From contig CAMBUI010000002.1 of NCBI GenBank assembly GCA_945870915.1, positions 1 through 40,496 on the forward strand: DNA of 40,496 nucleotides, read 5' to 3'. The position numbers and the translations under genes were made by a program. Within the stretch, counting starts at the first letter, position 1. Each line of letters opens with the position of its first letter. Of the stretch, positions 15,413-39,429 are shown in pieces. The notes beneath the pieces are model-generated. The model was not told the origin of the DNA, did no database searches, and saw only the letters and a program-made list of their open reading frames with translations. Source of the DNA: Candidatus Kuenenia stuttgartensis (GTDB lineage Bacteria; Planctomycetota; Phycisphaerae; Phycisphaerales; SM1A02).

Positions 15413-15937
15413 AAGTGAACTACCCGCCGGGTGCCTCATGCACCGGCCAGCCGCGGACCGTCGTGATCGTCCAGAGGGAGAGGCGTCGCTTCAGCTCTTG
15501 ATGGCACCGCATCCCGGCGGGTCGTCGGGCGTGGCGCCGTGGATCCCGTGGATCGCACGCCGCTCCGCCGCATGACCATGCCGGGGAAGATGTTGGGAGA
15601 GAAGAAAGGACACGGTTCTCACGGGGGGATGCCGCATGCGAACAGCGCGCACCGCGGCCTTGGTCTGGATCGATCTATCCCGCACATGGCTCCGGAGAGG
15701 GCTGCTCCTCGGAAGCACGGGCGAGGGTGCGTGCGCACCTGCGAACGGTCGCGAACGGCATGGCCTGTTCGACGAGCCGGAAAAGTGCGGGCGGCCGAAT
15801 TGCCTCCGGGTCCGATCGTCCAGACGCCGGCGAGCCGGCGGGTGGACGGGGGTGGTGGCGCCGCCCGGTCCGCCTCCGCGGACTTGCGGAGTTTCGGGGT
15901 CGGGACCACAACTGTCAAGGTAGGATCCGCGTTCCGC

Positions 15938-17776
15938 ATGCCTCCCGCCCTGATCTGGCTCTCGAACCTGCTGCCGACCAACCCGATCGCGGTCCGCATC
16001 GTCGCCGGCGGGTCGAAGCGGTCGCGGCACCTCCTGCTCCGGTCGGGGTACCTCGCGGTCATGATCGCGATCCTGCTGCTGGGGCTCCTCGGGGGCGACA
16101 GCACGGTCAAGCAGCTGGCCACCCGCGGGGCGGGGGCGTTCTCGGTCGTCGCCTTCGGGCAGGTCGGCCTGATCTGCATCCTGACCCCGATCTTCATGGC
16201 GGGCGCGATCGTGCAGGAGGCGAGCCCCCGGACCTGGGACATCCTGCTCACGACCCCGCTCGGGAACCTGCAGATCGTCCTGGGCAACCTCTTCGGGCGG
16301 CTGTTCTTCATCCTGTCGCTGCTGTTCTCGACGCTGCCGCTGTTCGTGCTGACCCAGTACTTCGGCGGCGTGCCGGGCGGGGCGATCTTCACCGCGTACG
16401 CGGTGGCGGCGGCGAGCGCGCTGATCGTGGCGACCACGGCGGTCACGCTGTCGGTCACCCGCAGCGCCGGCAAGCGGGCGGTGTTCGTCTTCTACGCGGC
16501 CGTGATCATGTACCTGTTCGCGACCTACGCGGCGGACGTGTACGCCCGCACCAAGGTTCCGCTCGGGGTCGGCTCGGGCGCCACGCACACCACGATCTTC
16601 ACGCCGACCAATCCGTTCCTCGCCCTCGAGAGCGCGCTCAAGTCGACGAACTACACGCCCTACGCGGCGAGCGAGGTCCCGCTGACCCTGCTCGCGCCGC
16701 TCTACACGGCGCCGGCGACGAGCTTCTGCGTGGCGTGCCTGGGCCTGAGCCTGGCGATGATCGCCTGGTCGACGCTGCGGCTGCGCGTGATCGGCACCCG
16801 TGGGCCGCGCGCGTCGTGGTGGCGCGCGCTGCTCGGGACGGGTCCCAGCGCCGGCGGCACACGCGCCTCGCGCGCGGTGGGCGCGAACCCGATCGCGTGG
16901 CGCGAGCAGATGCTGCGCACCCAGTCGGTCGGCGGCATGTTCGGGCGGTGGGCGTTCCTCGCGCTGGGCGCGTGCGTCGGCCTCGTGCTGTGCGGGCTGC
17001 ACCACCAGGGCACGGTGAGCTCGCGCGACATGCAGCTGGCGCTGCTCGGCGTGGTCGGGGCCGAGGTCGCGGTGGTGCTGCTGACCGCCGTGAGCCTGAG
17101 CGCGACCGCGGTCAGCCGCGAGCGCGAGGACGGCACGCTCGACATCCTGCTGACGACGCCGATCCAGCCCGGGCCGTACCTCGCGGGCAAGCTGCGCGGG
17201 ATCGTCCAGTTCCTGGTGCCGATGCTGCTGGTGCCGTTCGTCACGCTGGGCACGGTCGCGGTCTACACGATGGCGGGCGGATTCGGCGCGGCGCAGGGCG
17301 TCGAGGTGCGGGCGTCGGTCGGGACGGGCACGGGCAACCTGGTGCTGCCGATGATGCTGCCCGAGGGCGCGCTGCTGGTGCTGCTCGACCTCGTCGCGGC
17401 GACGAGCTTCGCCATCATGGTGGGGCTGCAGTGGTCGCTGCGCACCAAGGGCACGATCGGCTCGGTGATGGCGGCGATCGGCGTGATCGGCCTGATCGGA
17501 CTCGTGCTCGGCGTGTGCGCCGCGGCGCTCGGCGGCTCGATCCCGTACGTGGGCGCGGCGGCCGCGGCGGCGAGTCCGCTCAACATGCTGTTCGCCACGG
17601 TCGCACCCGACAACTGGATCTCGGAGAGCCTCGCCGATCTCGGCGCGGCGCGGACCAGCCTCGCGATCGGGACCATCGTCGCCTGCATCGCGTTCGGCGC
17701 CGCCTGCGCCGCCATGCACGCGGCCATGAAGAAGAGCTTCATGATGACGGTGCGTCGGCTCTCGGGAACCAACTGA
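15938..17776 (+). CDS. ABC-2 type transporter permease (multi-TM)
   Basis: MPPALIWLSNLLPTNPIAVRIVAGGSKRSRHLLLRSGYLAVMIAILLLG...; two related segments, ASPRTWDILLTTPLGNLQIVLGNLFGRL and EREDGTLDILLTTPIQPGPYLAGKLRGI, typical of ABC-2 permeases. Confidence 0.8.
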   Translation: MPPALIWLSNLLPTNPIAVRIVAGGSKRSRHLLLRSGYLAVMIAILLLGLLGGDSTVKQLATRGAGAFSVVAFGQVGLICILTPIFMAGAIVQEASPRTWDILLTTPLGNLQIVLGNLFGRLFFILSLLFSTLPLFVLTQYFGGVPGGAIFTAYAVAAASALIVATTAVTLSVTRSAGKRAVFVFYAAVIMYLFATYAADVYARTKVPLGVGSGATHTTIFTPTNPFLALESALKSTNYTPYAASEVPLTLLAPLYTAPATSFCVACLGLSLAMIAWSTLRLRVIGTRGPRASWWRALLGTGPSAGGTRASRAVGANPIAWREQMLRTQSVGGMFGRWAFLALGACVGLVLCGLHHQGTVSSRDMQLALLGVVGAEVAVVLLTAVSLSATAVSREREDGTLDILLTTPIQPGPYLAGKLRGIVQFLVPMLLVPFVTLGTVAVYTMAGGFGAAQGVEVRASVGTGTGNLVLPMMLPEGALLVLLDLVAATSFAIMVGLQWSLRTKGTIGSVMAAIGVIGLIGLVLGVCAAALGGSIPYVGAAAAAASPLNMLFATVAPDNWISESLADLGAARTSLAIGTIVACIAFGAACAAMHAAMKKSFMMTVRRLSGTN

Positions 17777-17899
17777 GCGCCGGCGCGGAACCTTCCCGCG
17801 GAACGGCCCGCTGCGATTTGTGCGAAAGTGCGGAACAGTCGGAGACGGCGGAGGCGTCCTGCGCATCCACCGCTCCCGTTTCACGCCGCAGGAGGAACC

Positions 17900-19459
17900 A
17901 TGCTCGCCATCTCGCTGATCGCCGCCGCCGCACTCGCCGCCGCACCCGCAGTCGCACCCTCGGTCCAGAAGTCCGCCGAGAAGTCGGCCGAGAAGACCGA
18001 CGGCAAGCCCACCCCGGGCGTCTCGCTCACCGTCTACTCGTCGGCCGACCCCGCGGGCTTCAACCCGCAGCAGTTCATCCAGCAGCAGCGGATGAGCGGG
18101 CAGGACAACGTGTGGGGCGTGCCGGGCTACGGCGTGGTCAAGGTCGTGCGCAGGGTCGCGGTGCCGAAGGGCGTGGGCGAGCTCGCGTTCACCGATGTCG
18201 CCGCGTGGATCGACCCGACGACGGTGTCGTTCAACGATCTCGACGACGCCAAGACCACGGTGCTCGAGCAGAACTTCCAGTTCGACCTCGTGAGCCCGTC
18301 GAAGCTGATGGAGAAGTTCCTCGGACGCGAGATCTCGCTCGCGGTCGCGATGGGCGACGGCGTCTCGAACGTACGCGGCACGCTCCTGAGCGCGAACCAG
18401 GGCTCGGTCGTGCTCCAGACGGCCGAAGGCGTGAGGATCGTCCCGATGGCGGGCGCGCAGCTGCAGCTCGGCGAACTGCCCGGCGGCCTGCTCACCAAGC
18501 CGACGCTGGTGTGGAAGCTCGCCAGCGAGTCGGGCGGCGAGCACCTCGTGCGCACCACCTACCAGACCGCGGGCATGACCTGGCGCTCGGACTACAACAT
18601 CGTGATCAACGGCAGCGACACCCGCGGCGACATCACCGCGTGGGTCACGCTGATGAACCTCTCGGGCGCGTCGTTCGACGACGCCGAGCTCAAGCTCGTC
18701 GCGGGCGACGTGCACAAGATCCAGCCGCAGCCCATGATCGCCGGGAGGGGCGGCGGCATGCGCATGGAGGCGATGGCGATGGCCGACGCGGCCGGCTTCT
18801 CCGAGAAGGAGTTCGCCGACTTCCACCTCTACACGCTGCCGCGCCGCACCGATGTGCTGCAGAACTCGACGCAGCAGATCGCGCTGTTCCCGCCGGTGAG
18901 CGGGTTCAAGGTCAAGCGCGAGCTCGTGTTCGACTTCACCGGCGGCATGGGCGCGCCCGGGCAGCCGATCCTCGACCGCGACTTCGTGATCGCGTCGAAG
19001 GCGAAGCCGTCCATCCTCGTGAGCTTCGAGAACAAGAAGGAGAACTCGCTCGGCATGCCGCTGCCCAAGGGCAAGATCCGCGTCTACAAGGAGGATCCGT
19101 CCGACGGCACGCTCGAGTTCATCGGCGAGGACCTCATCGACCACACGCCGCGCAACGAGACGGTCAAGATCCGCCTCGGCGAGGCGTTCGATGTGGTCGG
19201 CGAGCGGATCCGCAGCGACTTCACCATCGACAACGCGGCCAAGCGGATGACCGAGACCTTCCGGATCGAGCTGCGCAACCAGAAGTCGGCGGCGCAGAAG
19301 GTGCGTGTGATCGAGCGCCCGTACCGCTGGACCAACTGGCAGATCACCAGGAAGAACACCGAGTTCGAGAAGCTCGACTCGGGCACGATGGCGTTCGACG
19401 TCGAGTTGCCGAGCGAGGGCAGCCGGACGATCGAGTACACGGTGCTGTACACCTGGTGA
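17900..19459 (+). CDS. DUF4139-like domain protein, secreted
   Basis: SD ggagg + ATG at 17900; signal peptide; MTWRSDYNIVINGSDTRGDITAWVTLMNLSGASFDDAELKLVAGDVHK; LGMPLPKGKIRVYKEDPSDGTLEFIGEDLIDHTPRNETVKIRLGEAFDVVGER. Confidence 0.8.
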   Translation: MLAISLIAAAALAAAPAVAPSVQKSAEKSAEKTDGKPTPGVSLTVYSSADPAGFNPQQFIQQQRMSGQDNVWGVPGYGVVKVVRRVAVPKGVGELAFTDVAAWIDPTTVSFNDLDDAKTTVLEQNFQFDLVSPSKLMEKFLGREISLAVAMGDGVSNVRGTLLSANQGSVVLQTAEGVRIVPMAGAQLQLGELPGGLLTKPTLVWKLASESGGEHLVRTTYQTAGMTWRSDYNIVINGSDTRGDITAWVTLMNLSGASFDDAELKLVAGDVHKIQPQPMIAGRGGGMRMEAMAMADAAGFSEKEFADFHLYTLPRRTDVLQNSTQQIALFPPVSGFKVKRELVFDFTGGMGAPGQPILDRDFVIASKAKPSILVSFENKKENSLGMPLPKGKIRVYKEDPSDGTLEFIGEDLIDHTPRNETVKIRLGEAFDVVGERIRSDFTIDNAAKRMTETFRIELRNQKSAAQKVRVIERPYRWTNWQITRKNTEFEKLDSGTMAFDVELPSEGSRTIEYTVLYTW

Positions 19460-19538
19460 GCCTCCGGCGGGCGCGCGCACGCGCACGCCGCGGTGCGAGT
19501 CGCGCGCGCTTCTCCTCGGTGGCAAACGACTTGCGGCC

Positions 19539-19615
19539 GCTCGAGGACTGCTCGAGGACTGCTCGAGGACCGCTCGAGGACCGAGCGAGGACCGAACGAG
19601 GACCGAGCGAGCCTC
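19539..19615. repeat. 11-bp tandem array, 7 units
   Basis: gctcgaggact x2 / gctcgaggacc x2 / gagcgaggacc / gaacgaggacc / gagcgagcctc. Confidence 0.9.
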
Positions 19616-19716
19616 GGATCAGGGCGTCGGCCGACGCCTCCGACGCACGGAACGCGGCGTTCGTCCGCTCGCGCGCTCTTGACCCCGCCAACACCGAACG
19701 CACACACGGCCACACG

Positions 19717-19745
19717 AACCTCCTGCCTTCCAACAGGAGGTTTTT
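19717..19745 (+). promoter_or_regulatory. SD-sequestering / terminator-like hairpin immediately before the start codon at 19747
   Basis: aacctcctg-ccttccaa-caggaggtt, perfect 9-bp stem followed by T-run; the 3' arm contains the SD (aggagg) 6 nt from ATG. Confidence 0.75.
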
Positions 19746-19746
19746 C

Positions 19747-22722
19747 ATGCGTACATTCCATCGCTCGACCCGTCGGTCGATCCTTCGCACGGGCACCACG
19801 GCCCTCGCCGCCGCGGTGTTCGCCGCATCCGGCGCCCTTGCGGGCGACCCGTACATCTCGATCACGCACCTCGCCAGCACGCCGCGCGCGGGCTACGACG
19901 TCGCCGGTGCGGAGATCGTGGCCTTCGACGCCGCCACCAAGCGCGCGTTCGTGGTGAACGGCTTCACCAATTCGATCGACATCTTCGACCTCGGGACGCC
20001 CGCCGTGCCGGTCGCGGCAGGCAGCATCTCGCTGCTGCCCTACGGCGGCGGCGTGCAGAGCGTGGCGGTCAAGAACGGCCTCGTGGCCTGCGCCGTGCAG
20101 GGCGCGCTCAAGACCGATCCCGGTCTGGTCGTGTTCTTCGACACCGCCGGCGCGTTCCTCGCGTCGGTGACCGTCGGAGCGCTGCCCGACATGCTCACCT
20201 TCACGCCCGACGGCACCAAGGTCATCGTCGCCAACGAGGGCGAGCCGAGCGCCGACTACCTGGTCGACCCCGAGGGTTCGATCAGCATCATCGACGTGAC
20301 CGGCAAGGCGATCACCCAGGCCGACGTGACCACGCTCGGCTTCAACGGCCTCGCGGCGGGCGTGATCGACGCGTCGATCCGCGCGTTCGGCCCCGGTTCG
20401 CCGACCATCGGCCAGGACCTCGAGCCCGAGTATGTCGCGGTCGCGCCGGACTCGGCCACCGCGTGGGTCTCGCTGCAGGAGCACAGCGCGGTCGCCGTCG
20501 TCGACCTCGCCACCAAGGCGATCACCTCGGTGCGCGCGCTCGGCACCAAGAAGCACGGCCAGGGCACGCCCAGCCTCACCACGGCGACCTTCGCGGCCCC
20601 GCCGGTGCTCGGCACCACCGCGGCCGGACAGGACATCCTGCTCGGCGGCTTCAGCGGACTCTGGCTCGACTCGATCGACGCGGCCACCGGCGTGGTCACG
20701 CTGTGGGCCAACACCGACCGCGGCCCGAACCTCGAGCCGGTGAATGTCGACGGCGACGCCGCCCTCGAGCGTCCCTTCGCGCTGCCGGGATTCCAGCCGC
20801 GCATCTGCACCTTCACCTACAACCCGGCGACCAACGCGTTCGCGCTGACCGGGCAGATCCTGCTCCGCAAGCCCGACGGCACGGCGCTCACCGGCCTGCC
20901 CAACATCCAGGGCGCCGCGGCCGGCCTCGCCTACACCGACGAGCAGCCGTGCGACCTCTTCGGCAATCCGATCGCGAACGATCCGATCGGCGGCGACCTC
21001 GAGGGTCTCGTGCGCACCGCCGACGGCAGAATCTGGATGTGCGACGAGTACCGCCCCGCGCTCTACAAGTTCGACGCGACCGGTCTCATGCTCGACCGCT
21101 TCGTTCCGGCGGGCTCGAACGCCTTCGGCGTGACCGTGGGCACCGAGGCGTTCCCCGCGGTGTACGCGCAGCGCCGCGACAACCGCGGCTTCGAGGCGAT
21201 CGCGGTGTGGAACCAGTTCGTCTACTGCTTCGTGCAGAGCCCGCTCGACAACCCCGATGTGGCGAACGACGCGAACTCGAAGGCGTCGCGCAACATCCGC
21301 ATCGCCAAGTTCGACACGACCACCAGCAGCGTGGTGGCGGAGTACGTCTACGTGCTCGAGGGCGGCGCGAGCGACAAGCTCGGCGACGCCTGCGCCTTCG
21401 CGCCCGGCAAGTTCCTCGTGGTCGAGCGCGACAGCTCGCTCGGCACCACCTCGAAGAAGAAGGTGTTCGAGATCGACCTCGCGGGCGCGACCGACATCTC
21501 GACGCTCGCCCCCGCCATCTCGGGCGTGGGCGGCACGCTCGACCGCATGACGCCGGCCCAGCTCGCGGCCGCCGGCATCGCGCCGGTCTCGAAGTCGGTG
21601 TTCATCGACCTCGCGGCCGTCGGCTACGCGGACTTCGGCGACAAGGTCGAGGGCCTCGCGATGCGCGACCCGTCGACGATCTTCGTGATCAACGACAACG
21701 ACTTCCGCATGCCGCTCACCTTCGACCCCACGACCGGCACCTTCCCGGTCAACCCGGCGGCGGTCCCGACCACGCTCGGCATGGTCACCTTCTCGGGCAA
21801 CGGCCTCGATCCGAGCGACCAGGACACGGTCAACGCCATCGCCGGCTGGCCGGTCGAGGGCGCGTACCAGCCCGACGCGATCGCGTCGTTCAGCGCGGGC
21901 GGGCAGACCTACTTCGCGGCCGCCAACGAGGGCGACTCGCGCGAGTGGGGCACCTTCGTGGACATCGCGGCGGTGTCGACCTTCACGCTCGATCCGCAGG
22001 TGTTCCGCGGCGGCGCGTGGCTCAGGGGCAACGCGCGCCTCGGCCGCCTGCAGGCGCGCAAGGACCTCGGCGACCTCGACGGCGACGGCGACTTCGACCG
22101 CATCGTGGCGCTCGGCGCGCGCAGCTACACCATCTGGAACGCCGCGGGCCAGCGCGTCTGGGACTCGGGCGACCAGCTCGAGCAGACCGTCAAGGCGGCG
22201 AACCCGACCTACTTCAACGCCAGCAACACCAACAACACCCGTGACAACCGCAGCCGCTCCAAGGGCCCCGAGCCCGAGGGCGTGACGGTCGGCACCGTCG
22301 CCGGGCGCCAGTATCTCTTCGGCATCTCGGAGCGCGTCGGCGGCATCTTCGCCTACTCGATCGAGGATCCGACGGCCCCGGTGCTGCAGACCTATGTCAA
22401 CAACCGCACCTTCACCGTGGCGACCAACCTCGCCGGTTCGGGAGACCTCGGCGCCGAGGGCGTGACCTTCGTCGGCGCGTCCGACTCGCCCAGCGGCAAG
22501 GCGCTGCTCCTCGTGGCCAACGAGATCAGCGGCACGCTGGCGGTGTGGGAGGTCAACGCGGTGTGCGACGCGGTCGGCGACCTCAACGCCGACTGCGCGG
22601 TCAACGGCGGCGACCTCGCGCTGCTCCTCAACAACTGGGGCGGCACGGGCACCGGCGACATCGACGGCGACGGCACGGTCGGTGGCGGCGACCTCGCGGC
22701 GCTGCTCAACAACTGGGGCTGA
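19747..22722 (+). CDS. Secreted choice-of-anchor I / phytase-esterase-like protein with C-terminal dockerin-like domain
   Basis: Signal peptide; GGVQSVAVKNGLVACAVQG...LPDMLTFTPDGTKVIVANEGEPS; phytase/esterase-like middle (GGFSGLWLDSIDAATGVVTLWANTDRGPN..., GRIWMCDEYRPALYKFD); C-term DLNADCAVNGGDLALLLNNWGGTGTGDIDGDGTVGGGDLAALLNNWG. Confidence 0.8.
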   Translation: MRTFHRSTRRSILRTGTTALAAAVFAASGALAGDPYISITHLASTPRAGYDVAGAEIVAFDAATKRAFVVNGFTNSIDIFDLGTPAVPVAAGSISLLPYGGGVQSVAVKNGLVACAVQGALKTDPGLVVFFDTAGAFLASVTVGALPDMLTFTPDGTKVIVANEGEPSADYLVDPEGSISIIDVTGKAITQADVTTLGFNGLAAGVIDASIRAFGPGSPTIGQDLEPEYVAVAPDSATAWVSLQEHSAVAVVDLATKAITSVRALGTKKHGQGTPSLTTATFAAPPVLGTTAAGQDILLGGFSGLWLDSIDAATGVVTLWANTDRGPNLEPVNVDGDAALERPFALPGFQPRICTFTYNPATNAFALTGQILLRKPDGTALTGLPNIQGAAAGLAYTDEQPCDLFGNPIANDPIGGDLEGLVRTADGRIWMCDEYRPALYKFDATGLMLDRFVPAGSNAFGVTVGTEAFPAVYAQRRDNRGFEAIAVWNQFVYCFVQSPLDNPDVANDANSKASRNIRIAKFDTTTSSVVAEYVYVLEGGASDKLGDACAFAPGKFLVVERDSSLGTTSKKKVFEIDLAGATDISTLAPAISGVGGTLDRMTPAQLAAAGIAPVSKSVFIDLAAVGYADFGDKVEGLAMRDPSTIFVINDNDFRMPLTFDPTTGTFPVNPAAVPTTLGMVTFSGNGLDPSDQDTVNAIAGWPVEGAYQPDAIASFSAGGQTYFAAANEGDSREWGTFVDIAAVSTFTLDPQVFRGGAWLRGNARLGRLQARKDLGDLDGDGDFDRIVALGARSYTIWNAAGQRVWDSGDQLEQTVKAANPTYFNASNTNNTRDNRSRSKGPEPEGVTVGTVAGRQYLFGISERVGGIFAYSIEDPTAPVLQTYVNNRTFTVATNLAGSGDLGAEGVTFVGASDSPSGKALLLVANEISGTLAVWEVNAVCDAVGDLNADCAVNGGDLALLLNNWGGTGTGDIDGDGTVGGGDLAALLNNWG

Positions 22723-22815: not shown

Positions 22816-22843
22816 GGGGATGGCGTTGGGCGCGAGGGGGGCG

Positions 22844-23010
22844 TACATGCCTGTCCCGTCTCCGGGCGGGCGCCGGCGTCGGGTGCTGGGCTGCGTGCAT
22901 GCGCGTGCATGCCTGTCCCATCTCCGGGGCGGGCGCCGGTGTCGGGTGCTGGGCCGCGTGCATGCCTGTCCCGTCCATGCCTGCGGGGGCCGTGCATGCC
23001 TGTCCCATCC
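22844..23010. repeat. CATGCCTGTCC repeat cluster (4 full copies; higher-order unit about 62 bp)
   Basis: catgcctgtcc at 22846, 22908, 22961, 22995; conserved longer unit gcgtgcatgcctgtccc(g/a)tctccgggg(c)gggcgccgg(c/t)gtcgggtgctgggc. Confidence 0.9.
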
Positions 23011-23087
23011 ACGCGGAATTGCTGAGAGGTCGTGCCGACTCGTGCGGACTCCCTTGCCGGGACTCGTACCCCTGGCGAGGAGACCCC

Positions 23088-24014
23088 ATGCACCAGTCCT
23101 TGTCCGCGGCCCGAAGTTCGGCCGCGCGTTCCCGTCTGGCTCCGATCGGAGCCGCCGCGCGCCAGCGCGTGCTCATCGCGGTCGTCCGAACGCCGTCCGG
23201 CCTGCCGTCGCTGGCGGCGGGTCGCGTGGCCGCGGCGCGTCGCGCCCTCGGCGACGAGGTCCGGCTGGCCGAGTTCGAGGGCGAGCGGCTCCTCGCGCTG
23301 CCGCGGCTCGGTCCCGACACCGATCTGCTGGTGTTGGTCGACTCCGAGGACAGGATCCGGGTGTTCCCGGCGACGGATGCGCCGGGGTCGACCTCGACCT
23401 CGACCTCGATCTCGATCTCGGGCGCGGGTGCGTCCGGGCTCGTTCCCGACTTCAGCGACTATCCGTTCGAGCGCACGCGTGTGCTTCCGATCGCAGCCTC
23501 CGACGGTGGCGCGCCGCGCCCGCTCGGTGCGCTCCTGCACGAGGTGCGCGAGTACGTGCGGCGACATGCATCGCCCGATCTCGTGTTCGTCGATCGTGCG
23601 CTCAACCGGGACCCGGCGCTGCTCGAGGGGCTGGTGGATTCGGTCCAGCGGCACGCCCACGGCGTGCAGTGGATGGCCGCGCTGCGCGTCGACGACGGTT
23701 CGTCCGACGGGCTCTCGCGCAGGTTCCTCCGCGCCGCGGCCGCGGCGGGACTTCGCAGCGTGGTCCTGCGTGCGCCGGCCGGCCCCGCCGAGCGCCGTGC
23801 ACGGGAACTCGCGGTGCACGCGGGCGATGCCGGGATCTCCACCCGCGTCGTCGCGGGAGATCTGCCGGTCGAGACGAGGACCGCGGGTCTGCGCGTGCTT
23901 CGGCGCGCGGGTCTCGGCGCGGTGCTGCCCGCTCCGGGAGCCGAGGTGCTGATGGACATCGCACCGAAGGACTCGATGCGTGGACTGGACCGATGGATTG
24001 AAGCGATGGATTGA
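23088..24014 (+). CDS. Uncharacterised protein; possible radical-SAM/B12-type barrel relative lacking the CxxxCxxC motif
   Basis: ATG at 23088 (ggcgaggag upstream). PDLVFVDRALNRDPALLEGLVDSVQRHAHGVQWMAALRVDDGSSDGLSRRFLRAAAAAGLRSVVL resembles rSAM half-barrel order (D..fn.d ... w...lRvd ... l..aGl..v). No Cys cluster seen. Confidence 0.5.
   Translation: MHQSLSAARSSAARSRLAPIGAAARQRVLIAVVRTPSGLPSLAAGRVAAARRALGDEVRLAEFEGERLLALPRLGPDTDLLVLVDSEDRIRVFPATDAPGSTSTSTSISISGAGASGLVPDFSDYPFERTRVLPIAASDGGAPRPLGALLHEVREYVRRHASPDLVFVDRALNRDPALLEGLVDSVQRHAHGVQWMAALRVDDGSSDGLSRRFLRAAAAAGLRSVVLRAPAGPAERRARELAVHAGDAGISTRVVAGDLPVETRTAGLRVLRRAGLGAVLPAPGAEVLMDIAPKDSMRGLDRWIEAMD
23388..23417. repeat. 6-bp SSR inside the CDS (TSTSTSISIS linker)
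   Basis: tcgacc x3, tcgatc x2. Confidence 0.8.
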
Positions 24015-24082
24015 AGCGACGGACTGAACCAACGGCCCGAAGCGACGCACTGAACCGACGGCCCGAAGCGACGGGCGAATGA
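23992..24082. repeat. 13-bp tandem array, 7 units, overlapping the 3' end of the upstream CDS
   Basis: gatggattgaagc x2 / gacggactgaacc / aacggcccgaagc / gacgcactgaacc / gacggcccgaagc / gacgggcgaatga. TGA stop of 23088..24014 is in unit 2. Confidence 0.9.
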
Positions 24083-24102
24083 ACAGCACCGAGGAGTCGA
24101 CC

Positions 24103-25434
24103 ATGCCAACCGCCACCATCGATGTCAGTAACCCGCTCCGCCAGCGCCTGCGCATGCTCACGCCCGTCGCGAAGCTCGCCGAGGCCGAGGCCTTCGTCCG
24201 CCAGTTCCACGACGAGAACGGCCTCGGGCGCGCGGCGTGCGAGGCGCGGCTTGCCGAGGTGCGCCGCGTGCTCGCGCGGACGAACCACTACGACCACACG
24301 CCCGACGAGCTCGCCTTCGGCGCGCGGCTCGCCTGGCGCAACCATGCGCGCTGCATCGGGCGGCTGTTCTGGAAGTCGCTGGTCGTGGTCGATCGCCGCG
24401 AGGTGACCGATCCCGGCGAGATCGCGGCGTGCTGCGCCGAGCACCTCGTCGCGGCGCGCAGGTCGGGCGGGATCCGATCGACGATCACCGTGTTCGCGCC
24501 GGTGCGCGGCGACGCGCTGCCCGCGCACATCGAGAGCCGGCAGCTCGTCCAGTACGCGGGCTACCTCGCCGACGACGGCACCGTGCTCGGCGATCCCGCC
24601 GGCATCGAGGCCACGCGGACGGCGATGGCGCTCGGCTGGACGCCGCCGGCGCGGCGCTCGCGTTTCGACGTGCTGCCGCTGCAGATCTGCGATGCGCGCG
24701 GGCGGCGCCATCTCTTCGAGTTTCCCGAGGGCACGGTGGAGGAGGTCGCGATCGAGCATCCGTCCGCACCCGCGCTCGCGGAACTGGGCCTGCGCTGGTA
24801 CACGGTGCCGGCGGTCAGCTCGATGGTCATGACGATCGGCGGCATCGAGTATCCCTGCGCGCCGTTCAACGGCTTCTACATGGCGAGCGAGATCGCCTCG
24901 CGCAACTTCGCCGACGAGTCGCGCTACGACCAGATGCACGCCGCCGCGCGCGCGCTCGGGATCGACACCGCCGGCGCGCTGTGGAAGGACCGCGTGCTCA
25001 CCGAGCTCAACGAGGCGGTGCTGCACTCGTTCCGCCGCGCGGGCGCGACCATCCTCGACCACCACACCGCGAGCGAGCAGTTCATGGAGTTCTTCCAGAA
25101 GGAGCGCAGCGCCGGCCGCGAGCCGAGCGCGGAGTGGTCGTGGATCGTGCCGCCGCAGGCGTCGGCCGCGTGCCCGGTCTACCACCTCCCGATGCGGGAC
25201 CAGCACGCGGTGCCGAACTACTACGGTTCGGCGGCGACCGACGGTGCTCGACTCGGGGTGCACGGCGGGGCGGATCGGAGCGCGCCGGCGTCCGGGATGG
25301 ACGCGGAGACGGAAGTGGCCGCAGCGCCCGAGGCGCCCGCCGTGTCCCGCTGCCCGTTCGCGCGGGGCCTCGGATTCCTCGCCCGCGCGGTGGCGAAGCC
25401 GCTGGGGCATCCGGTGTCGTTGAACAGCCTGTGA
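24103..25434 (+). CDS. Nitric oxide synthase oxygenase (bacterial NOS-like)
   Basis: SD gaggag + ATG at 24103. NOS heme signature AWRNHARCIGRLFW; ESRQLVQYAGYL; TIGGIEYPCAPFNGFYMASEIASRNFADESRYD (substrate-binding region with conserved Glu); WSWIVPPQASAACPVYHLPMRD. Confidence 0.92.
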   Translation: MPTATIDVSNPLRQRLRMLTPVAKLAEAEAFVRQFHDENGLGRAACEARLAEVRRVLARTNHYDHTPDELAFGARLAWRNHARCIGRLFWKSLVVVDRREVTDPGEIAACCAEHLVAARRSGGIRSTITVFAPVRGDALPAHIESRQLVQYAGYLADDGTVLGDPAGIEATRTAMALGWTPPARRSRFDVLPLQICDARGRRHLFEFPEGTVEEVAIEHPSAPALAELGLRWYTVPAVSSMVMTIGGIEYPCAPFNGFYMASEIASRNFADESRYDQMHAAARALGIDTAGALWKDRVLTELNEAVLHSFRRAGATILDHHTASEQFMEFFQKERSAGREPSAEWSWIVPPQASAACPVYHLPMRDQHAVPNYYGSAATDGARLGVHGGADRSAPASGMDAETEVAAAPEAPAVSRCPFARGLGFLARAVAKPLGHPVSLNSL

Positions 25435-25462
25435 GTTGCGGCGGGGGGTGCGCGCGCGTGCA

Positions 25463-25700
25463 TGCCGCGTGCTTGCCTGTCCTGTCGGGGGCAGTCCAGT
25501 CGGACGCGTGCATGCCTGTCCCGTCTCTCCGGTCCGTCTCTCCGGTCTCGCGTCCGGTCACGTGCGTGCATGCCTGTCCTGTCTCGCGTCGGACGCGTGC
25601 ATGCCTGTCCCGTCTCTCCGGTGTCGCGTCCGGTCACGCGCGTGCATGCCTGTCCTGTCTCGCGTCGGGCACGTGCATGCCACGTGCATGCCTGTCCCGT
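25463..25700. repeat. CATGCCTGTCC repeat cluster (5 full copies; higher-order unit about 77-89 bp x2)
   Basis: catgcctgtcc at 25511, 25569, 25600, 25645, 25687; long unit gacgcgtgcatgcctgtcccgtctctccggt...tcgcgtccggtcacg(t/c)gcgtgcatgcctgtcctgtctcgcgtcg at 25503-25591 and from 25592. Confidence 0.9.
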
Positions 25701-25706
25701 CTGGCC

Positions 25707-26516
25707 TCAAGCGCGCCAGAGGCGCGCGAGATCCGCGATCGACAGCGATTCGGGCCGCGCGTTCGGGTCGATGCCCTCGGGCCAGGTGCGGGAGCGGCCG
25801 AGGATCGCGCCGAGCTGCTTGCGGCGCTTCGAGAAGAGCGTGTGCACGAACGCGCCGAAGGCGTCGGCCTCGCCGTGCGGGATCACGGGCGCTGCGCGCG
25901 GGCGCAGGGCGAGCATCGCGCTCGTGACCTCGGGCGGCGGCCAGAAGCATCCGGGCGGGAGCACCGCGACCTGCTCGACCTCGCAGAAGGCCTGCACGAT
26001 GATCGTGAGCGGGCCGTACTCGCCGCTGTTCGGCTGCGCGCGCAGCCGGTCGCCCACCTCGCGCTGGATGGTGACGAACTGCCCGACGCACTGCGGCATG
26101 GTGGCGCAGATCGCCATCACCGGGCTCGCGGCCTGGTAGGGGAGGTTCGCGACCAGCGTGAACGGCCGTCCCGCGAGGCGCGCGAGCGCGTCGGCGTTGA
26201 GCGCGCGCTTGCCGTCGAGGCAGTCGCCCTCGACGAGCGTGAACCGCGGGTTGGCCGCGAAGTGCTCGCGCAGGTGCGCGGCCAGGTCGCGGTCGAGCTC
26301 GATCGCCACGAGCTCCGCGCCGCGCGCGAGGATCTCCTCGCTCATGGTGCCGGTGCCGGGACCGATCTCGACGACGAGGCTGCCCTCGCCGATCCCGCTC
26401 GCGTCGACGAGCTTGCGCAGCAGGTTCTGGTCGACGAGGAAGTTCTGCCCGAAGCGGTGCTTGGGCGAGAGTCCACGCGCGGTGAGGATGGACCGGATGT
26501 CGGACTGGGTCTGCAC
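25707..26516 (-). CDS. rsmA: 16S rRNA (adenine1518-N6/adenine1519-N6) dimethyltransferase
   Basis: VQTQSDIRSILTARGLSPKHRFGQNFLVDQNLLRKLVDASGIGEGSLVVEIGPGTGTMSEEIL..., FTLVANLPYQAASPV. Start taken as GTG 26516, 7 nt after TAGGAT; ATG 26525 is the alternative. Confidence 0.93.
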   Translation of the reverse strand: MQTQSDIRSILTARGLSPKHRFGQNFLVDQNLLRKLVDASGIGEGSLVVEIGPGTGTMSEEILARGAELVAIELDRDLAAHLREHFAANPRFTLVEGDCLDGKRALNADALARLAGRPFTLVANLPYQAASPVMAICATMPQCVGQFVTIQREVGDRLRAQPNSGEYGPLTIIVQAFCEVEQVAVLPPGCFWPPPEVTSAMLALRPRAAPVIPHGEADAFGAFVHTLFSKRRKQLGAILGRSRTWPEGIDPNARPESLSIADLARLWRA

Positions 26517-26562
26517 GCGGCGCATCCTACGAGCAACGCGCGGCGGAGCGCGACGCGGCGTG

Positions 26563-26674
26563 GAACGACGCAGCCGAGGAATGACGCAGCCGAGGAATGA
26601 CGCAGCCGAGGAATGACACAGCCGAGGAATGACACAGCCCAGGAATGACACAGCCCAGGAATGACGCGGGGCGG
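26563..26674. repeat. 16-bp tandem array, 7 units
   Basis: gaacgacgcagccgag / gaatgacgcagccgag x2 / gaatgacacagccgag / gaatgacacagcccag x2 / gaatgacgcggggcgg. Confidence 0.92.
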
Positions 26675-28949: not shown

Positions 28950-28960
28950 GGACAGGCATG
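28950..28960 (-). repeat. Inverted single copy of CATGCCTGTCC
   Basis: ggacaggcatg. Confidence 0.6.
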
Positions 28961-29011: not shown

Positions 29012-29830
29012 ATGCGCGACATGCCTGTCCAGTCCCGAGTCCGGTCGCGGGGAAACGCGGCTCGAAACACCGCCCTTTGCGCCGTGATCGCCATGATCGG
29101 CCCCGTGGCGGCGCTCGCGGGCTGCGCCTCGCAGCCGAGCGGACCCTCGTACCTCTCGGTGCCGCGTGCGCAGTACGCGCAGGTGTTCGATGCCGCGTGC
29201 GACGCCGCGCGCGCCGAGGGACTGACCCCCGAGCTCGCCGACCGGCAGTCGGGCGTGATCGGAACCCAGCCGCGCGCCGCGGGCTCGCTGATCGAGCCGT
29301 GGACCTGGCAGGACCTCACCGCGAGCGATGTCGTCGAGGCGACCTTCGGCTTCGAGCGTCGGCGCGCCTACTTCGAGTTCGTTCCCGCGGGCTTCCGGCC
29401 GATCGCGCCCGAGGGTTCCGCGCCGCTGGCGGGTCCGGTGCTCCCGGGCTCGGAGCGCGAGGTTCCCGCCGGGGTCGGCGAGGCGCGCGGTGGCGATGCG
29501 GCCGCGGGACCCGCCGCGGGAGCGGGTGCGGGAGAAGGAGCAGCCGCGTCCGGCACCGACGCGTTGGACGCCGACGCGTCCGGCCGCGCCGCGCGGATCG
29601 AGGTCCGTGTGTCGGTGTCGGTCGAGCGACAGTTCCGACCCGGCTACCAGGGCACCGCGTACACGCGCGCGCTCGGCAGCTACGCCCGCGATCTGCCGCC
29701 GAAGCGCGGGCGCGACGAGCGTCCCGCGTCGCAGGATCGCTCGACCTGGACGCCGGTCGCCCGCGACGAGCGCCTCGAGCGCGTGCTCATCGAGCGCATC
29801 GCCGAGCGGCTCGCGCCGAGCGCGCCGTGA
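29012..29830 (+). CDS. Lipoprotein, uncharacterised
   Basis: MRDMPVQSRVRSRGNAARNTALCAVIAMIGPVAALAGCASQPSG: lipobox LAGC; remainder unassigned. Confidence 0.75.
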   Translation: MRDMPVQSRVRSRGNAARNTALCAVIAMIGPVAALAGCASQPSGPSYLSVPRAQYAQVFDAACDAARAEGLTPELADRQSGVIGTQPRAAGSLIEPWTWQDLTASDVVEATFGFERRRAYFEFVPAGFRPIAPEGSAPLAGPVLPGSEREVPAGVGEARGGDAAAGPAAGAGAGEGAAASGTDALDADASGRAARIEVRVSVSVERQFRPGYQGTAYTRALGSYARDLPPKRGRDERPASQDRSTWTPVARDERLERVLIERIAERLAPSAP

Positions 29831-37949: not shown

Positions 37950-37979
37950 CGGTTGCCGGGCGGCGGCGTTCGGCAACCG
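37950..37979. terminator. Possible terminator hairpin after 37932
   Basis: cggttgccg-(12 nt)-cggcaaccg, 9-bp stem; no clear U-tract. Confidence 0.4.
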
Positions 37980-37983
37980 GATG

Positions 37984-38039
37984 TCGTTCAGCGGCTGTCG
38001 TTCAGCGGCCTTCGTTCAGCGGCCTTCGTTCAGCGGCTG
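37984..38039. repeat. 14-bp tandem array, 4 units, overlapping the GH57 stop codon
   Basis: tcgttcagcggctg / tcgttcagcggcct x2 / tcgttcagcggctg. Confidence 0.92.
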
Positions 38040-39271
38040 TCGGTCATGCGCGCCCGCGCGTGGCTCTTCACGCCCGCGCGCGACTTCAGGTTGTCGAGCA
38101 CGTTCATGAAGTTGATGTACGCGTCGTACGGGCTGTCGTAGGGCGAGAAGTACTTGTGGACGTCGCCGTCCGACCAGTACTTGGTGCACATGTAGTAGAG
38201 GTGGTCGCTGGTGGTGAGCTTGCGCCAGTCCTCGAGGATGTACGGGTCGCCCGCCTTGTGGCGCTCCTTCACCGGACCCTCGAGCGCGTAGAGCTCGGCC
38301 GCCGCGCCGTCCTGGATCGGGTTGCCGAGCCACGCGCTCAGGTCGCGCTCGCTGTCGGCCCACGAGATCCAGTCCTGCACGTCGTACTCGCCGACCGGCT
38401 CGTGGCAGTCGACCAGCTGGCTCGGCGTGAGGAAGTCGTTGTTCCCGTGGTTGGTGTCGTACACGGCGCCCGGCAGCGCGTCGAGGAACTCGAAGATCCC
38501 CGTGTCGGCCCACTGGTGCTCGCCGAAGGTCTCGTAGTCCATGAACAGGTTGCAGCAGAAGCCGTCGCCGTTGATCTGGTTGACCCAGCCGGCGAACTTC
38601 TCGGCGGACAGCGGCCATTCCTTCCAGCCGCGGTTCGAGAAGCGGAAGGCGATGTCGTCGCTCAGCCGGTAGTTCTTGAGGAGCAGCTTGATGCGGTCGT
38701 TCGGGTCGCCCTCGCCGGGCGGCGCGTACAGGTAGTTCGGCGAGCGGAACCCGAGCAGCCGGTCGACGCCCTCGCAGATGATCGCCTTGTGCTGCCCGCG
38801 CCGCGCGATGTGCTCGGCGAGCGCGTTCGAGTAGATGAGCTCGGTGTTGCGGAAGATGCGCGGCGTGACGCCGAAGACCTCCTGCATGCGGCGCTGGTGG
38901 CGGTCGACCTGCTCGTCGAACTCCTTGCGCGAGAAGAGGAACGACAGCGAGTGGTGGCTGGTCTCGCCGATCAGCTCGCAGGCGCCGGTGTCGACGAGCT
39001 CGCGCAGCGTGTCGACCACGTCGGGCGCCCACATCTGCAGCTGCTCGAGCGCGGTGCCGGTGATCGAGTACGCGCAGCGGAAGCGCCGGTCGTGCCGCTT
39101 CACCAGGTCGAGCATCTTGCGCGTCGCCGGGCGATAGCACTTGTCGGCGACCTTGCGGAGGATGCGCTCGTTCGCCTCGTTGTCGAAGTAGAACGGATCG
39201 TTCGAGAAGACCGAGTAGCGGCGCAGGCGCCACGGCTGGTGGAGCTCGAAGTAGAAGCAGACGCTTGCCAT
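38030..39271 (-). CDS. Glycoside hydrolase family 57-like protein
   Basis: MASVCFYFELHQPWRLRRYSVF (GH57 N-terminal HQP motif), GETSHHSLSFLFS, IICEGVDRLLGFRSPNYLYAPPG, FMDYETFGEHQ. Confidence 0.9.
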   Translation of the reverse strand: MASVCFYFELHQPWRLRRYSVFSNDPFYFDNEANERILRKVADKCYRPATRKMLDLVKRHDRRFRCAYSITGTALEQLQMWAPDVVDTLRELVDTGACELIGETSHHSLSFLFSRKEFDEQVDRHQRRMQEVFGVTPRIFRNTELIYSNALAEHIARRGQHKAIICEGVDRLLGFRSPNYLYAPPGEGDPNDRIKLLLKNYRLSDDIAFRFSNRGWKEWPLSAEKFAGWVNQINGDGFCCNLFMDYETFGEHQWADTGIFEFLDALPGAVYDTNHGNNDFLTPSQLVDCHEPVGEYDVQDWISWADSERDLSAWLGNPIQDGAAAELYALEGPVKERHKAGDPYILEDWRKLTTSDHLYYMCTKYWSDGDVHKYFSPYDSPYDAYINFMNVLDNLKSRAGVKSHARARMTDSR

Positions 39272-39317
39272 CCGCGCAGCGTAGCGCGTCTTGGCGCGGC
39301 GGAGGTTCCGGCCGCGC

Positions 39318-39429
39318 CGTTCGGACCGCGTCGTTCGGACCTGGTCGTTCGGACCGTGTCGTTCAGACCCAGTCGTTCATGCCGCGTCGTTCACACCCCG
39401 TCGCTCACACCCCGTCGCTCACACCCCGT
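39318..39429. repeat. 14-bp tandem array, 8 units, overlapping the epimerase stop codon
   Basis: cgttcggaccgcgt / cgttcggacctggt / cgttcggaccgtgt / cgttcagacccagt / cgttcatgccgcgt / cgttcacaccccgt / cgctcacaccccgt x2. Confidence 0.92.

Follow-up and report, generated by a model that had tools for sequence, protein, structure and literature searches.

RAYT and IS200/IS605 enzymes recognise and nick repeats in single-stranded DNA. TIRtrons carry a Y1 transposase gene between inverted repeats with the TIR motif GGGGWSAS, and copies of the TIR are dispersed as singles, dimers and clusters; the same study describes CGTC REPs as having no dedicated transposase (Di Nocera et al. 2013, PMC3733652). 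TnpA_Y1 subclass 2.3 comprises proteins of about 325 aa with the motifs NHYH, W-E and YVDLNP, for which no associated repeats were reported (PMC6006769). In staphylococci, the STAR elements are interspersed intergenic direct repeats that expand and contract in a locus-specific manner, much as the arrays considered here seem to do; they belong to another organism group, and the abstract of PMC3532100 names no transposase. The short repeat analyzed here is likely to be a dispersed element of a RAYT/TIRYT-type Y1/HUH tyrosine transposase family, and its nearest known entity is the TIRtron, or TIRYT.

The window, by which we mean the whole 40,496-nucleotide stretch of DNA that was analyzed, contains two arrays of the repeat, one on either side of a nitric oxide synthase (NOS) gene and its partner gene. 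Array 1 (22841-23014, plus strand) separates a phytase-like gene from the NOS partner gene and contains four exact copies of the 11-mer CATGCCTGTCC, at 22846, 22908, 22961 and 22995, within a 63-bp higher-order unit. Array 2 (25472-25703, plus strand) occupies the convergent gap between NOS and ksgA and contains five exact copies, at 25511, 25569, 25600, 25645 and 25687, within a 76-bp higher-order unit, together with a degenerate tenth copy, CTTGCCTGTCC, at 25472-25482. The preliminary description of this DNA had counted the same nine copies, all in one orientation and with exact coordinates for the two clusters, and had estimated higher-order units of about 62 and about 77-89 bp; these units are real, with Tandem Repeats Finder returning periods of 63 at 22841-22965 and 76 at 25534-25681. 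Its inventory missed the degenerate copy, the copies in the rest of the assembly and a further pair of exact copies in the window. This pair, which is inverted and faces outward (28950-28960, minus; 29020-29030, plus), sits in a divergent intergenic gap and has no connection to NOS. When up to one mismatch to CATGCCTGTCC is allowed the window contains 12 matches against 0.68 expected, a number reached in none of 100 shuffles.

Across the assembly (265 contigs, 83% completeness), counting exact strings, CATGCCTGTCC occurs 76 times (48 plus, 28 minus), compared with once for the reversed control string. The copies fall into 33 clusters of one to seven, and 57 of the 76 lie outside predicted genes though about 87% of the sequence is coding (P about 3e-35 under a simple gene model), a distribution that supports an alternative raised in the preliminary description, namely that the repeat colonises junctions. 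Alignment of all copies reveals a conserved element that is longer than the 11-mer, reading GTGCATGCCTGTCCC[A/G]TC in the source genome, and followed by a tail private to each site. Copies of the core, TGCCTGTCC, form arrays on one strand as well as inverted pairs that face outward. Close neighbors on opposite strands, away from transposases, face outward in 7 cases versus 1 in the source genome and in 6 versus 2 in the other genomes. A text search of open-access papers found no report of the motif.

The genes around the two arrays are, from left to right, one for a large protein whose domains are phytase-like and choice-of-anchor I (15727-22722, plus; Pfam PF13449 and PF22494), the NOS partner gene (23088-24014, plus), the gene for the NOS oxygenase domain (24079-25434, plus; PF02898, E 4e-127) and ksgA/rsmA (25707-26651, minus; TIGR00755 above cut-off); the first and the last of these are conserved neighbors. 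The arrays do enclose the partner gene and NOS, as had been proposed, and NOS does have the presence/absence character of an accessory gene at this site. PF02898 is found in 6 of the 16 genomes of the genus, the source genome counted. Four relatives (G002, G003, G005 and G010) have partner and NOS between the same neighbors as in the window, the phytase/choice-of-anchor protein and ksgA, and in six without NOS (G001, G004, G006, G007, G008 and G014) the phytase gene stands next to ksgA, their matched ends being 70-271 bp apart.

It is the link from NOS to the repeats that fails. The locus had been read as a cassette in which the direct repeats are recombination ends and the NOS unit is gained or lost through exchange between the two arrays. 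In its favor, the arrays share one orientation, and the two genes that they enclose are carried by some relatives and not by others. This reading is nevertheless highly improbable. No copy of TGCCTGTCC is present in the loci fetched from these ten relatives, NOS-bearing or NOS-less (0 copies in L106-L111 and, in L128-L136, 0 on the NOS side), and the sole copy near ksgA in any relative is at a contig end in G012, inside or beside ksgA. The preliminary description had envisaged a NOS-less junction retaining one repeat cluster; the empty sites of the six relatives all lack a cluster. Moreover, the longest identity between the two arrays, which are 2.5 kb apart, is 21 bases at most, most copies in the genome are unrelated to NOS, and an exchange of transposon type would need the left array to be inverted, which it is not. 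In the relatives NOS and the repeat vary independently: G002, G003, G005 and G010 have NOS with neither transposase nor repeat expansion, and G001, G008, G012 and G014 have transposase and repeats without NOS. The two arrays of the window are therefore lineage-specific additions, two settlements of the repeat without a causal link to NOS. Judged from these sequence comparisons, it is a coincidence, probably helped by the preference of the repeat for intergenic gaps, that they flank NOS. The tested explanation thus takes the place of an attractive story about a NOS cassette.

Two IS200-like Y1-domain genes are present in the source genome, at C154:4422-5615 (minus) and C11:4959-6287 (plus), both amid copies of the core. 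Copies of the string TGCCTGTCCC and homologues of the C154 protein were tallied together in 61 relatives; the family is represented by 37 genomes. The ten family genomes with a strong homologue have 82 (G000), 18 (G001), 92 (G008), 26 (G012), 59 (G014), 34 (G015), 73 (G047), 39 (G050), 6 (G042) and 5 (G052) copies of TGCCTGTCCC, and the 27 without the transposase have 0-14, near the control level. Taking 18 copies or more as expanded, expansion is seen in 8 of 10 family genomes with the transposase versus 0 of 27 without it (Fisher P 1.2e-6, a value that overstates independence because the genomes are related). The expanded genomes belong to three genera. G009 is borderline, with 11 copies, 78% completeness and no homologue found. 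The exact 10-mer is not expanded in G042, G052 and G192, which do have homologues (six in the case of G192); the transposase flanks of G052 nonetheless carry TGCCTGTCCT. Outside the family, 20-33 copies are present in some large genomes that lack a strong homologue. These copy-rich genomes and G192 indicate that the link between motif and transposase is not universal, although it is clear in the family and in chosen distant genomes.

Copies within 600 bp of 17 transposase loci are 33 minus and 3 plus on the left, and 3 minus and 29 plus on the right, such that the genes lie inside inverted repeats of the form GGACAGGCA...gene...TGCCTGTCC with the tails pointing outward. The two transposases of the source genome are accompanied by two variants, CATGCC (CATGCCTGTCC) at C154 and TTGCC (TTGCCTGTCC) at C11, with 13 of the 29 source-genome copies of TTGCCTGTCC crowded on C11; both arrays of the window belong to the C154 type. 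The letter preceding the core requires 4 changes on the transposase tree versus 8 by host identity in a small sample of 13 rows, and its G and T groups are well-supported transposase clades that cross species or genus lines. These observations bear on whether the core might be a cellular protein-binding or regulatory site, acting at transcription ends or in chromosome organisation, that is under selection and is not mobile. Such a site would account for the strong intergenic bias of the copies, and the STAR elements indicate that repeats of this sort may be kept for a cell function (PMC3532100). We nevertheless consider a regulatory site improbable, as all motif-rich family genomes have the transposase and the variant letter tracks the transposase and not the host genome, albeit in few rows. 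In addition, the core is at background level in most relatives and is thus not an essential site.

The Phycisphaerae transposases are about 390 aa long and 40-52% identical to the C154 protein. The HUH motif NHxH and the tyrosine motif Y-x-x-L-N are invariant across 17 aligned rows, and W-E-G-R is likewise invariant, the Phycisphaerae forms being NH[L/I]H and, mostly, YIELNE. Membership of the Y1 group is indicated by PF01797, which is above cut-off for both source-genome genes; Pfam gives only Y1_Tnp, and the NCBIfam RAYT model NF047646 scores 40.1 and 33.2 bits, below its cut-off of 80. A sequence search of solved structures gave nothing significant. The structural model of L137, a close homologue (mean pLDDT 77), matches ISDra2 TnpA, the RAYT-REP complex 4er8 and IS608 TnpA with probability 1.00, the matches spanning the catalytic part only.

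Homologues at 30-40% identity are found in Pirellulaceae, Alteromonadales, Shewanella, Pseudoalteromonas and others. The gammaproteobacterial proteins, of about 320-335 aa with NH[Y/L]H, W-E and YVDLNP, carry the signature of subclass 2.3 and occur in Alteromonadales, whereas the Phycisphaerae proteins are longer and deviate at NHYH and YVDLNP. Also unlike subclass 2.3 as described, for which PMC6006769 gives no repeats, several of the gammaproteobacterial homologues have the inverted TGCCTGTCC core. An unbiased search for any 9-mer inverted across the distant homologue genes returned ATGCCTGTCCT, GTGCCTGTCTT, AGTGCCTGTCCCTGT and GTTGTGCCTGTCCA, and at other distant loci the sister forms TGGGTGTCC and GTGGGTGGCAC. 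Ten distant hosts were picked, chiefly for the presence of the motif in their flanks; in the genomes of seven of them the core is enriched relative to the reversed control (237/23, 82/4, 58/7, 38/8, 27/11, 22/8 and 18/5), and in the other three it is not (46/37, 51/52 and 43/36). The sister forms GTGGGTGGCAC and TGGGTGTCC flank homologous transposases of Pirellulaceae and other groups in inverted orientation (L141, L146, L156 and L158; L144, L150, L151, L162, L174, L175 and L193).

In its HUH-Y1 fold (4er8), its dispersed intergenic repeats, its inverted pairs and the tracking of transposase by repeat variant, the system resembles REP/RAYT systems. It differs from them in having no GTAG (or GTGG) tag and no conserved hairpin. 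GTAG is absent from the consensus of the aligned copies, and flank pairing in the source genome is not in excess, with 62 of 200 permutations as good in one test and 124 of 300 in a second. Elsewhere a weak excess is seen only in G014 (9 of 200 permutations) and in G050, where it is based on 6 copies only. A palindromic or REP reading of the repeat was accordingly rejected, duplex and constrained-fold permutation tests giving no excess pairing in the source genome. A CGTC-tagged REP, which the frequent ending CCCGTC might suggest, was likewise rejected, as about half of the copies have CATC, there is no stem, and REPs with that tag are said to have no transposase of their own (PMC3733652).

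Some arrays bear the marks of local growth. G008 contains pure tandem arrays of 8 x 17 bp, 7 x 18 bp and 7 x 44 bp, and in the source genome duplicated tails are found behind 5'-shortened cores, strikingly so in the single arrays L014, L017, L021 and L027. By a strict 8-mer test the tail is re-duplicated in 8 of 75 copies, compared with 1 of 75 upstream and about 2% of random positions; with so few copies passing, systematic tail re-duplication was rejected as a rule and kept as a tendency. The G008 arrays with their site-specific units, and the duplicated tails, are what would be expected if the repeat were a minisatellite, that is, a slippage-prone core spread by replication errors and recombination and only incidentally associated with a transposase. 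As an account of the whole pattern this is unlikely, since it does not account for the recurrence of one 9-mer at many sites that are unlinked, for the inverted copies that bracket the transposase genes, or for the match between transposase presence and copy number. Slippage would, however, explain well how an array grows locally after a copy is seated.

If the repeat is the dispersed element of a Y1 transposase, as we favor, the enzyme would recognise the core TGCCTGTCC as single-stranded DNA and nick it, and would move or re-seed copies at intergenic sites. A seated copy with its local flank could then expand into a site-specific tandem array, either by repeated nicking and rejoining or by slippage. 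Since no classical REP hairpin is evident, recognition of the core would be more by sequence than by stem. A more specific proposal, plausible if somewhat short of an even chance, is that a Y1 branch near subclass 2.3, extending across phyla, has non-palindromic TGCCTGTCC and sister forms like TGGGTGTCC for its cognate repeat, and that these enzymes, which would need no REP hairpin, act as makers of minisatellites in Planctomycetota and Gammaproteobacteria, building site-specific intergenic tandem arrays by repeated nicking and rejoining.

The likeness to TIRtrons extends from the inverted repeats flanking transposase genes at 17 loci to the dispersal of the source-genome copies as 33 clusters of 1-7 and as inverted pairs. 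It is also apparent in the motif: GGGGACAG in the G008 copies (TGCCTGTCCCC) matches GGGGWSAS exactly, and the source-genome GGGGACAGGCA, [T/C]GGGACAG, agrees in 7 of 8 letters. In contrast to TIRtrons, the core here is very short, the outer flank varies by site and same-strand tandem arrays are prominent, and the host group is absent from PMC3733652. Within the limits of the search, the new features are the host group, the site-specific arrays, a core that is so short and yet shared across phyla, and a putative cognate repeat in a Y1 transposase branch reported as repeat-less. The core is a candidate target for that branch, with 9-base conservation from Planctomycetota to Alteromonadales, and suggests one source of otherwise unexplained intergenic direct-repeat arrays in such genomes.

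Several further features of the window and its relatives were noted. The 23088-24014 gene has no Pfam or NCBIfam match, and each of the six other genomes examined that carry NOS, among them G054 from another family, has a relative of it immediately ahead of NOS; we regard its product as a putative conserved NOS partner. One relative (L110, G010:C446) has two partner-NOS pairs in tandem at the NOS site, and the pairs differ in sequence type. A tandem array with a 13-bp unit (GAAGCGACGGAC-like) covers the last part of the partner gene together with the gap preceding NOS (23981-24074). The 5' end of the ksgA ORF as annotated is occupied by 6.6 copies of the 16-bp tandem repeat GGAATGACGCAGCCGA (26562-26667). 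Because the alignment of most relatives begins only at about residue 38-46, ksgA probably starts near 26525, which places the repeat ahead of it. Two 14-bp tandem arrays (37978-38046 and 39312-39429), both containing TCGTTC, flank an ORF at 38030-39271. Finally, the self-complementary GTGCC[T/A]GGCAC is a possible second short repeat, found near cores in G015 (L083 and L084) and also at the NOS-less phytase-ksgA junctions of two relatives (L128 and L130).
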